From Candidatus Nitrosopelagicus sp. (GTDB lineage: Archaea > Thermoproteota > Nitrososphaeria > Nitrososphaerales > Nitrosopumilaceae), in contig JAKUOP010000009.1 of NCBI GenBank assembly GCA_022450565.1, forward strand, positions 1 to 35,386: DNA of 35,386 nt. The letters run 5' to 3'. Below the pieces are notes generated by a model, which made no database searches, was not told where the DNA came from, and saw only the letters and a list, made by a program, of their open reading frames with translations. The translations under genes were made by a program, and so were the position numbers. Shown piece after piece: positions 25,831 to 29,680 of the stretch; position 1 is the first letter of the stretch; each line of letters opens with the position of its first letter.

Positions 25831-25881
25831 TCATACAATTATTTCTAAAACATTTAATCATGGATAACTAGAATCATCATT

Positions 25882-27174
25882 ATGGTATTTGGATGGGGTA
25901 AAAAGAAAGATGCTATTGTTGATGATGCAATTGAACCTGTAGCAACATCAAGCACAGAAATTACACTGGAAGAAATTCCACAGATACTTGATGATGTAAA
26001 AAATTTAAGGGGAAAAACATTGATTGCTGAAATTAGATCATTTAGAAATAAGATTGACTCTGATAGAAAAAATTTACTTTCGATTGCAAATGAACTAAAA
26101 AATGATAATTTAAAAACCGACGATATTGACATTCATTTAAAAATTCTCGTGAATAGAGGAAAATCAGAAGTGATTTCAACAATACAAAGAGAATTTCAAA
26201 CTTCTTTCGCTGAAATTAATTCACTGAATGATGTATTTGAATTTGAAAAAAAAGCAACAAAGGCAATAAAAAAAGTTGGTGATGTTTTAGGTAAACATAC
26301 GCGAGTAATCCATATTTTTGCAAGAAAGTATGCAAAAAAATTAAAAGTTGATCTGGAAGTTCGTAGTAGTTATTTGAAAGAAGTACAAGAATTGGTATCA
26401 AATTATAAAGCAAATCAAGAGTTTTTATCCATTATTAATCAAAACATTGAAAAGATTTCTACCACTAGAGAAGACATTACTAAACAGAATAAGCGAAGAA
26501 TTGAATTACAAAACTCATTTGAGCAAGAATCTGTAAAATTTGAAGAGTTGACTAAGAAATATGATGAATTCATATCATCATCGGAATATGATGAATACAT
26601 ATCCAATAAATCCAAATTAGATGGTTTAGACGCAGAAGAAAAAAAAATCAGATATCGTATAGATGATTATTTTGTTAGGATTTCAAGACCATTAAACAAG
26701 TATGTTCATATTTCATCTCTTGATAAACCATTAAAAATCCTAAATGAGAAATTACTAGTTTCATTATATGACAATCTTACTGAAACTTCAAGCTCTGATA
26801 TAATCACAATTTTAGACTCTGTGCAAGCAGCAATTTCTTCAGGTTCAATATCTGTAAAAGATACTGAGAAATCTATTGAGCAAATAAAAAACATAAAGCA
26901 GACATTACCTAGTATGATTAAAGAAAAAACTGATTTTTATCAGAATAAGTCAATCTATTTTGAAAATCTAAAAAAATTTGATATTGAAGGTTTCAATGCA
27001 TGTAAATCAGGAATAAAAAAAGCTGAAGATGAAATTTCTAATATTGAATCAAAGCAATCTATGCTAGATAAACAAATTGAGGAAAATGACGCTCTAATTT
27101 TGAACACCTTCTTTACGCTTGAAACTAATTTGAAGAGTGCATCATCGGTTTCATACAAAATTATCACTGAATGA
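25882..27174 (+). CDS. Long coiled-coil protein, unknown function
   Basis: This 430-residue protein begins MVFGWGKKKDAIVDD, then is almost wholly helical with heptad-like patterns. Coiled coils are likely at about 40-90, 170-265 and 345-410 (for example NKRRIELQNSFEQESVKFEE). The region around 265-300 (YRIDDYFVRISRPLNKYVHI) is more globular. No membrane segment, nuclease or ATPase motif is present. The short N-terminal FGWGKKK peptide recalls leader sequences of some archaeal and bacterial membrane-associated coiled coils; that is only resemblance. It is the first gene of a tight same-strand cluster, and the JAMM protease starts 2 bp after its stop. It is likely a scaffold or substrate-binding partner of that protease, by context. 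Confidence 0.78.
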   Translation: MVFGWGKKKDAIVDDAIEPVATSSTEITLEEIPQILDDVKNLRGKTLIAEIRSFRNKIDSDRKNLLSIANELKNDNLKTDDIDIHLKILVNRGKSEVISTIQREFQTSFAEINSLNDVFEFEKKATKAIKKVGDVLGKHTRVIHIFARKYAKKLKVDLEVRSSYLKEVQELVSNYKANQEFLSIINQNIEKISTTREDITKQNKRRIELQNSFEQESVKFEELTKKYDEFISSSEYDEYISNKSKLDGLDAEEKKIRYRIDDYFVRISRPLNKYVHISSLDKPLKILNEKLLVSLYDNLTETSSSDIITILDSVQAAISSGSISVKDTEKSIEQIKNIKQTLPSMIKEKTDFYQNKSIYFENLKKFDIEGFNACKSGIKKAEDEISNIESKQSMLDKQIEENDALILNTFFTLETNLKSASSVSYKIITE

Positions 27175-27175
27175 T

Positions 27176-27577
27176 ATGCTGTTCAAACAAAAAAAATCAG
27201 AGCGTAAGGTAATAGTACAAAATGACGTAAAAGACGGAATTATTTCGTATTGTAAGATGAATCACCCAGATGAGATGGTTTTGATCCTTAAGGGCAAATC
27301 AAAAAATTCAGTTATGAGGATAGATGGACTTGTAATCCCACCATTTTCTCATACTGGACCAACATTTGCTGGGTTTCCATCATCGTTTCTTCCGTTGGAT
27401 CTAAGTTATATCGGAATGGTTCATTCACATCCTACTGGCTCTGAGGAGCCTTCATTGGAAGATCTGAACAATTTTTTTGGACTTGTTTCACTAATTGTCA
27501 AGTCACCTTACAAAGATGAGGACATTTTTGCATGGGATAGTAATGGAAATTCAATCCCTCTCACTTTTTCTGATTAG
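27176..27577 (+). CDS. JAMM/MPN+ metalloprotease domain protein
   Basis: This 133-residue protein is a single JAB1/MPN/Mov34 domain with every catalytic element: Glu33 (HPDEMVLILKGK), then His83-Ser-His85, Ser93 and Asp96 in HSHPTGSEEPSLED. This is the JAMM signature HxH-x7-S-x2-D. JAMM enzymes cleave isopeptide bonds of ubiquitin-like proteins such as archaeal SAMPs, or act in sulfur-carrier processing. No ubiquitin-like gene with a C-terminal Gly-Gly is present in the window. ATG 27176 follows the coiled-coil stop by one base, so translation is coupled. A longer frame from 27137 overlaps the previous gene and is not preferred. Confidence 0.9.
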   Translation: MLFKQKKSERKVIVQNDVKDGIISYCKMNHPDEMVLILKGKSKNSVMRIDGLVIPPFSHTGPTFAGFPSSFLPLDLSYIGMVHSHPTGSEEPSLEDLNNFFGLVSLIVKSPYKDEDIFAWDSNGNSIPLTFSD

Positions 27578-27641
27578 ATTGAGTTTAACGAGAGAATTTT
27601 TGAACAAACCTTATATTCTTTTTAAAACAAAATTACATATC

Positions 27642-27980
27642 TTGATTAATTACAAATCTTATTTGATATTTCTCTTTGCATCATTAGCTGTAAGCATAGG
27701 ACTGCAAATGGTTTTGCCTTTTCCATATGGTTTAGGTGCTGCACTAGCGTTGTTTATTGCATTTCCACTAATTCTTAGACGCAGAATGATGAATAGAATG
27801 CGTGGTGGATACGGCGGCAGTGGTTCAGGTTCAGGTTCTGGTGGTGGTTTTGGTGGCTTGTTTGGTCAAAACTCAGATAATTCATCAAAGATAAAATATG
27901 AATGTCTAGTCTGCCATAAAATCTACAATGCACGTGAATGTCCACGTTGTGGCTCATCAATGAAACGAGCAATGTTCTAG
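27642..27980 (+). CDS. Membrane protein with Gly/Ser linker and C-terminal zinc ribbon
   Basis: This 112-residue protein has two hydrophobic segments (about 6-26 and 30-46), the basic stop RRRMMNRMR, and a flexible Gly/Ser-rich linker (about 55-73). A cytoplasmic zinc ribbon ends the protein, with ligands Cys88, Cys91, Cys100 and Cys103 (YECLVC and ECPRC). The start is taken as TTG at 27642, just before the first membrane span. A TATA-like TTTTTAAAAC lies about 20 bp upstream, and longer frames overlap the JAMM gene. It is third in the cluster with the coiled-coil and JAMM genes and might anchor them to the membrane; that is inference. Confidence 0.75.
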   Translation: MINYKSYLIFLFASLAVSIGLQMVLPFPYGLGAALALFIAFPLILRRRMMNRMRGGYGGSGSGSGSGGGFGGLFGQNSDNSSKIKYECLVCHKIYNARECPRCGSSMKRAMF

Positions 27981-27988
27981 TAATATCA

Positions 27989-28321
27989 ATGTCACAAACA
28001 GATTTAGCATTAGACACCATTCGTAAAAAGGTCATTTATCAAAATACAATCGATACATGGATCGCAGTATGTTATGAAAAAGATATAGACTGGTATGAAA
28101 TAGAAAATTATAAAAAATTTGTATCTTATTTGTTAGAACACGACATAAAAATGAAAAAATTCCCTCTATGTATAAAGGAATCAGGTGGTATGTATGAAAG
28201 GGGAAAGGATAAGACAAAATTTGCTGAAGATTTATCACAGCTAACTGAAGAAAATGCTGCGGCATATACAATTAAACTGTCTGATGATGTTGTAAACACT
28301 ATAAGAAATTTTATAGTTTAA
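27989..28321 (+). CDS. Small hypothetical protein, last gene of the JAMM cluster
   Basis: This 110-residue soluble protein is of unknown family. It is mixed alpha/beta, with a Trp/Tyr-rich section (DTWIAVCYEKDIDWYEIENY) and a Gly-Gly-containing loop (CIKESGGMYERGKDK). A C-terminal helical part ends DDVVNTIRNFIV. The GG is internal, so it is not a ubiquitin-like tail. ATG 27989 lies 8 bp after the zinc-ribbon stop. It is convergent with the ABC permease gene, with no gap between stops. Confidence 0.7.
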   Translation: MSQTDLALDTIRKKVIYQNTIDTWIAVCYEKDIDWYEIENYKKFVSYLLEHDIKMKKFPLCIKESGGMYERGKDKTKFAEDLSQLTEENAAAYTIKLSDDVVNTIRNFIV

Positions 28322-29680
28322 TCATCTTTTTAATTTTGGATTTACAATTGTGTCAAGTGCATTACCTATAAAGACAAATGCTAAACCTGTTATTGCAATT
28401 AACAATCCAGGTGGAACGATCCACCACCAAAAGCCTTGTGCTGCAGCACCATATGTATTAGCATCATGTAGTATCTGACCCCATGTTGGAAATGATGGGT
28501 CGCCAAGTCCAAGAAAGCTTAATCCTGCTTCAGTGGTTATTGCAGCAGGCACCGAAATAGCAATACTTGCAAAGACATAAGGGAGCATTTGAGGTATAAT
28601 ATGCCTAAAGATAATTTTCGAGTCTTTTTGGCCCATCAGTTTTGCTGCTTCTACATACTGCCTCGTTTTTATCTGCAAGGACATACTCCTAGAGACTTTA
28701 GCAATACCAACCCAACTAAAGATCATCAAAAATCCAATCATAAGAAAAATACTATTGCTTATTGTCACTGCTAGAATTATTAAAAAAGGCAATGCAGGTA
28801 ATGCATAGATGACATCATTAAATCGCATCATTGCCTCATCTGTTTTTTTTCCTTTGTAACCAGAATAAACTCCATAGATTAACCCAACAATTACCGAACC
28901 AATTGAGACAGAAATTCCGATAAACAGTGCTAACGGTGTTCCCCATAAGAGACCTATTGCAAGATCTCTGCGTAATTCATCAGTACCCATTGCACCAAAA
29001 GCTTTTCCACCAATAATTAGGCGTGAATCAATAAATTCAGTTTGGAATTCCTTGTTAAACACATTAACTACAAATACATACTCACCATTGAGAATCTCTC
29101 GTGTTGCTTGATTTGAAAAAATCATATCCGTTGAATTCAGTCCATTAATTTCAAACTGATACAAATTAGATTGCATTAAAATATTTTTTCTTAATAAATC
29201 ATCAGCAGAAAAAATCCTTTGTTCATAGTTTGTTAATTCTGTTGAGTGTGGTATTGATGTATGTATTAGCTCCAAAATTGTTCCATCTGGTTTAATAACA
29301 ATAATTTCTAACAGCGGAGAACCAGTATATTCCAAGTTAAAATTATACATGAAGTCACTAGGAAAATCACCAAATTCATAGTTGAACCTGAATTGATTTG
29401 ATGTTAAAAAAATTTCATCGTTTTGATTAGTAATGTTTTCTGGAACAAGAATTTTATGTTCAGGAATTTTTTCCAACATAAACAAATTAACCCAACTTGG
29501 AACTGAAGTTTTTGGGTACGAAACCCATTTCTCAGGATTATTCCAATTTTGAAATGTTTCTGAAGGGATTGAAATTATAGCAAAAATTGATACTGCAAAA
29601 AGTATTAACAAAATAAAAATACCAGCAATTCCTATTTTGCTTCGAAGAAATTCATTTTTTATGTCTGCCGAAGTGTTCAT
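28322..29680 (-). CDS. Oligopeptide/dipeptide ABC transporter permease, DppC type, with large extracellular insert
   Basis: This 452-residue protein is the second permease of a peptide/nickel-type ABC importer. After a first membrane span (about 15-36) comes an unusually long outside domain of about 170 residues (about 40-225). The canonical DppC core follows: AMGTDELRRDLAIGLLWGTP, several membrane spans, and the EAA loop EAAKLMGQKDSKIIFRHIIP, which contacts the ATPase. Typical DppC proteins are about 300 residues, so the extra domain accounts for the excess. It starts one base after the DppB stop (29682), so the two form one transcript. No ATPase or substrate-binding protein is in the window. 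Confidence 0.92.
   Translation of the reverse strand: MNTSADIKNEFLRSKIGIAGIFILLILFAVSIFAIISIPSETFQNWNNPEKWVSYPKTSVPSWVNLFMLEKIPEHKILVPENITNQNDEIFLTSNQFRFNYEFGDFPSDFMYNFNLEYTGSPLLEIIVIKPDGTILELIHTSIPHSTELTNYEQRIFSADDLLRKNILMQSNLYQFEINGLNSTDMIFSNQATREILNGEYVFVVNVFNKEFQTEFIDSRLIIGGKAFGAMGTDELRRDLAIGLLWGTPLALFIGISVSIGSVIVGLIYGVYSGYKGKKTDEAMMRFNDVIYALPALPFLIILAVTISNSIFLMIGFLMIFSWVGIAKVSRSMSLQIKTRQYVEAAKLMGQKDSKIIFRHIIPQMLPYVFASIAISVPAAITTEAGLSFLGLGDPSFPTWGQILHDANTYGAAAQGFWWWIVPPGLLIAITGLAFVFIGNALDTIVNPKLKR

Follow-up and report, generated by a model that had tools for sequence, protein, structure and literature searches.

Re-reading the window (the whole stretch of DNA analysed here, 35,386 nucleotides from a Candidatus Nitrosopelagicus genome) bore out the tight run of four plus-strand genes described in the initial annotation, with intergenic gaps of 1, 64 and 8 bases. 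The first gene, here called CC (25882..27174), encodes an all-helical protein of 430 aa and is followed by JAMM (27176..27577), the 133-aa product of which carries an AfJAMM-type zinc metallopeptidase domain. The third gene, ZR (for zinc ribbon; 27642..27980), has a TTG start and encodes 112 aa with two hydrophobic stretches, a glycine-rich linker and a C-terminal CxxC...CxxC ribbon, and the fourth, UNK (27989..28321), encodes an alpha/beta protein of 110 aa in which one cysteine, Cys61, is invariant. Two TATA-like boxes lie on the same strand: TTTAAT (25853..25858), 24-29 bases upstream of CC, and CTTATAT (27610..27616), 26-32 bases upstream of the ZR start and inside the 64-base gap. Both flanking genes are on the minus strand; these are an SRPBCC-like gene (PF10604; 25358-25861) on the CC side and, after UNK, a transporter-permease-like gene (28322-29680) that resembles DppC by eye. 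A PHROGs search for a viral origin gave no match.

JAMM zinc proteases usually act on ubiquitin-like tags or conjugates. The motif E-Xn-HSH-X7-S-XX-D is complete in the window protein (Glu33, His83, His85, Ser93 and Asp96), as had been annotated, and its residues are invariant in 19 homologues. The protein matches Prok-JAB (PF14464; E=1.2e-10, 41.7 bits, curated cut-off 25), and AfJAMM (AF2198, PDB 1oi0) is both the best PDB match of the JAMM profile by far (E=7e-24) and the sole PDB match of the single sequence (E=1e-10). By these sequence matches the window JAMM is an AfJAMM-type member of the JAMM/MPN+ metallopeptidase family (Prok-JAB), and the intact active site suggests that it would act as a zinc peptidase. 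Against the haloarchaeal desampylase model it reached 20.8 bits, below the cut-off of 130, a miss that is weak on its own because that model is an equivalog for haloarchaea. The genome encodes one other Prok-JAB protein (P0007; G000:C61, L095:5785-6276), and this second JAMM matches JAMM1 of P. furiosus (E=9e-12), which has been described as a SAMP protease (PMC6043591). The P0007 gene lies just downstream of one for a membrane protein with, by eye, a cupredoxin-like C-terminus.

We also characterized the partner protein. The AlphaFold2 model of CC is nearly all helix (mean pLDDT 87.6, pTM 0.61), in keeping with the earlier description of a 430-residue coiled coil; about half of the protein forms a long coiled coil and the rest is helical bundle and tip. 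From the N-terminus, a tail (MVFGWGKKK) is followed by a bundle (29-147) and by two coiled-coil helices (148-265 and 328-420) with the tip (266-327) between them. Judged from the predicted secondary structure, the lengths of these helices and their breaks near residues 233 and 364 would fit an antiparallel hairpin. Conservation is 0.88 in the N-tail, 0.69 in part of the bundle (75-147) and 0.67 in the tip, and is lower in the coil (0.43-0.54). The tail (window 25882-25908) follows a pattern, M..F...KKK, that is rare, with one other candidate among 233 sampled open frames of the genome. Many JAMM orthologues start with a similar tail, MLFKKKK, and it is tempting to speculate that the two proteins share a common targeting tail. 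No PDB sequence matched CC at E<=0.001, and no PDB fold matched its model at E<=0.001, the top matches being long-helix proteins with poor superposition. Placing CC in a named coiled-coil family was rejected, as the Pfam matches were scattered and weak and differed between members.

Among relatives, the four genes keep their order at almost every Nitrosopumilaceae locus examined, so that this order is not due to chance, but it splits into two pairs. In a class-wide sample of 200 genomes, window-type JAMM was found in 167 (a count in which the weakest matches may include other JAMM types), UNK in 144, ZR in 144 and CC, counted at E<=1e-8, in 129. Of the 108 Nitrosopumilaceae genomes that have both CC and JAMM, 103 carry them side by side; among the exceptions, two seem to be breaks in the assembly, with contig starts involved (G095 and G125), two have the genes on different contigs (G128 and G159) and one has 158 kb between them (G178). 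ZR and UNK are adjacent in every one of 109 Nitrosopumilaceae genomes. Between the pairs the bond is looser, with JAMM and ZR close in 99/109 genomes and the pairs apart in the other ten, in all of which ZR and UNK are still together. The separation is 172 kb in G133 and a few kb in G063 and G071, and in the remaining cases ZR-UNK lies on another contig than JAMM, which may be an assembly effect.

The pattern of gene loss is similar. CC without JAMM occurred in none of the Nitrosopumilaceae genomes, and JAMM without CC in two. Six genomes of the family lack a window-type JAMM, and CC is missing from all six: four are without all four genes, which may reflect assembly gaps, and two represent one reduced genus (g15) in which CC and JAMM are gone and ZR-UNK is kept. 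Outside the family, some genomes carry CC, but where looked at it does not adjoin JAMM; JAMM occurs there without CC, and one genome of family f5 has CC without a JAMM of the window type. The order JAMM-ZR-UNK is found again in genus g26 of another family. An AAA/MCM-like ATPase gene comes next in that genus (L053:8396-9094, L057:7746-8471, L058:4167-4922). In another family the JAMM gene is near a Nop5/Nop56-like gene and, at some loci, also a fibrillarin-like gene (L055, L056 and L067; by eye).

The spacing of the genes and their upstream boxes point the same way. TATA-like hexamers were scored when starting 22-38 bases before a gene start, and compared with a control range upstream. The resulting counts, which are descriptive because the hexamers were listed with the sequences already in view and because independence does not hold among related loci, were 47/48 loci for ZR (5/48 in the control range), 44/46 for CC (a weak signal, since the control range is also AT-rich and scored 33/46), 30/50 for JAMM (1 in the control range) and 1/46 for UNK. 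JAMM starts one base after CC in the window and overlaps it by 4 bases in Nitrosopelagicus relatives. With a single base between these genes and no TATA-like box before the window JAMM, they probably share one transcript; co-transcription with CC is not universal, given the loci where JAMM has a box of its own. The box in the 64-base gap is likely to be a separate promoter for ZR-UNK. A single four-gene operon was rejected on account of the conserved box before ZR and the ten genomes in which the pairs are apart. Taken together, adjacency, gene loss and boxes favour a division into two separate units, CC-JAMM and ZR-UNK. A scan with a sigma-70-like promoter model, which is unsuited to archaea, gave a result below shuffle expectation and was set aside.

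These results modify the view of the four genes as one tight cluster that forms a membrane-associated deconjugation or proteolysis module. The CC and JAMM genes do belong together, and most Nitrosopumilaceae loci have all four genes side by side, but what is conserved is two pairs with a TATA-like box between them, and a single four-gene membrane module is not supported. In such a module ZR would anchor a JAMM-CC complex, with UNK as an accessory. The shared neighbourhood and the JAMM-ZR-UNK order of genus g26 would suit this arrangement; however, the promoter-like box between JAMM and ZR, the ten genomes with the pairs apart, the survival of only ZR-UNK in g15 and the Fe-S surroundings of UNK homologues in genomes that lack this JAMM all speak against it, and we regard it as improbable. 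Inherited synteny only, in which four housekeeping genes have been kept together in compact genomes with no functional link, is an unlikely account. Neighbours such as the DppC-like transporter gene are also found next to these genes in another family, but CC-JAMM and ZR-UNK remain paired when the rest rearranges, and in Nitrosopelagicus CC and JAMM overlap by 4 bases.

What the second pair does may be glimpsed from the proteins and from distant homologues. The hydrophobic stretches of ZR span about residues 7-25 and 27-45, consistent with the two-span protein annotated earlier, and its ribbon (CxxC...CPRC) is invariant; the cytoplasmic position also given to that ribbon is suggested by the RRR after the second stretch. 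ZR matched no Pfam family above its cut-off. The predicted model of UNK (pLDDT 84.9) matched no known fold, and weak Pfam matches to glycosyl hydrolases in 2/11 members were taken as chance, with no convincing family. In one distant genome (G166; L172:4619-4915) a UNK homologue has a cysteine desulfurase on one side and a SufC-like ABC ATPase on the other, within a run for Fe-S assembly (NifU, desulfurase, SufC-like, desulfurase, NifU), and in another (G187; L173:5201-5506) a homologue adjoins an Fe-S biosynthesis protein. Cys61 is invariant even in these Fe-S-context homologues, which occur in genomes without window-type JAMM. As the Fe-S context comes from two distant genomes and UNK is found beside unrelated genes in other families, we treat the Fe-S link as a lead. 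ZR, as a putative membrane zinc-ribbon protein, and the one-cysteine UNK would probably serve metal, sulfur or Fe-S handling, as neighbours of CC-JAMM and not as parts of that unit.

An obvious candidate role for JAMM lies in the ubiquitin-like (Ubl) system. The genome yielded two ThiS-family matches, both N-terminal fusions linked through Gly-Gly: Ubl-E1 (P0005; G000:C4, L098:1195-2514; junction AVAGG-SDLSEKE) and Ubl-Cgi121 (P0006; G000:C6, L096:1492-2268; junction IIHGG-SSSR). Both fusions are already known in Thaumarchaeota (PMC2948915, PMC11237513), and the GG is kept in 23/23 correctly read Ubl-E1 junctions. The earlier remark that no Ubl is encoded nearby holds for the window, and the Ubls detected in the genome are these fusions elsewhere. 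Since only fused Ubls were found, it would take a protease to produce a free one, and JAMM could be the enzyme that cuts after Gly-Gly in Ubl-E1 and Ubl-Cgi121 and takes Ubl off conjugates, with CC as a scaffold. There are precedents: a JAMM from Deinococcus cuts MoaD fused to MoaE (work cited in a passage of PMC11237513), and CsJAMM cleaves SAMP precursors (PMC6043591).

The distribution of the genes makes this role as a Ubl maturation and deconjugation protease rather unlikely. First, the same genome has its PfJAMM1-type JAMM, and JAMMs that match this second protein and not the window JAMM adjoin ThiF genes in other families (G013 and G197); a JAMM beside a Ubl-E1 fusion in G020 matches P0007 only slightly better than the window JAMM. 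Secondly, window-type JAMM is kept in 16 Nitrosopumilaceae genomes without a ThiF match at E<=0.001, absences that are read mostly from draft genomes and are not absolute; one ThiS match remains in most of these 16. Conversely, two genomes (G124 and G147) have E1, two ThiS matches and one Prok-JAB match, but no window-type JAMM. JAMM therefore does not track the E1/Ubl system, and because of this, and of the SAMP-protease-type JAMM elsewhere in the genome, we have demoted the idea of a dedicated Ubl deconjugase. The deconjugation proposed for this AfJAMM-like gene is weakened by these data but not dismissed, and the enzyme may still act on a Ubl fusion retained after E1 is lost.

The explanation we prefer, to which we give an even chance, is that the locus encodes an AfJAMM-type metallopeptidase with CC as its dedicated scaffold, plus ZR-UNK as an independent neighbour pair, in two transcription units. 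The two adjacent pairs would each be transcribed independently. CC would most likely be the dedicated scaffold of JAMM, holding the enzyme through its bundle or rod, and the conserved tip might bind a substrate or a location, perhaps aided by the basic-aromatic N-terminal tail. JAMM would then cut a bond probably in a specific protein; E1-dependent Ubl conjugates are unlikely to be its only substrate. More tentatively, AfJAMM-type enzymes of ammonia-oxidising archaea might form a JAMM-coiled-coil protease complex that works independently of E1-driven Ubl modification. We found no description of a CC-JAMM gene pair in the open literature, although absence there is no proof.

Several known systems can be set beside this pair. 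In the BRCC36-KIAA0157 complex (BRISC), a JAMM enzyme works with a coiled-coil-containing protein, which offers a comparison of working principle only: the partner in eukaryotes has the MPN fold itself, whereas CC is predicted to be all-helical without an MPN domain. CsRpn11 and CsJAMM of Caldiarchaeum are archaeal JAMMs that cleave the precursors of Ubl or SAMP proteins (PMC6043591); there, CsRpn11 and CsUb, and CsJAMM and a SAMP, are numbered consecutively, whereas the window has no Ubl gene and the conserved neighbour is CC. Similarly, PfJAMM1 (5lda/5ld9) and the HvJAMM1 desampylase are stand-alone archaeal JAMM metallopeptidases, but PfJAMM1 matches the genome's other JAMM. This split between the window JAMM and the SAMP-protease type leads to predictions on which of them matures archaeal Gly-Gly Ubl fusions. 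Finally, the closest likeness is to AfJAMM (AF2198; 1oi0/1r5x), a single-domain JAMM with the same E-HSH-S-D site and the best sequence match, for which a coiled-coil partner is not known. AfJAMM was the founding JAMM structure in 2003, in a study that saw no activity with ubiquitin derivatives or any other substrate tried (PMC300881), and a partner gene conserved across a whole family of archaea now offers a concrete lead to the activity or substrate of such enzymes.
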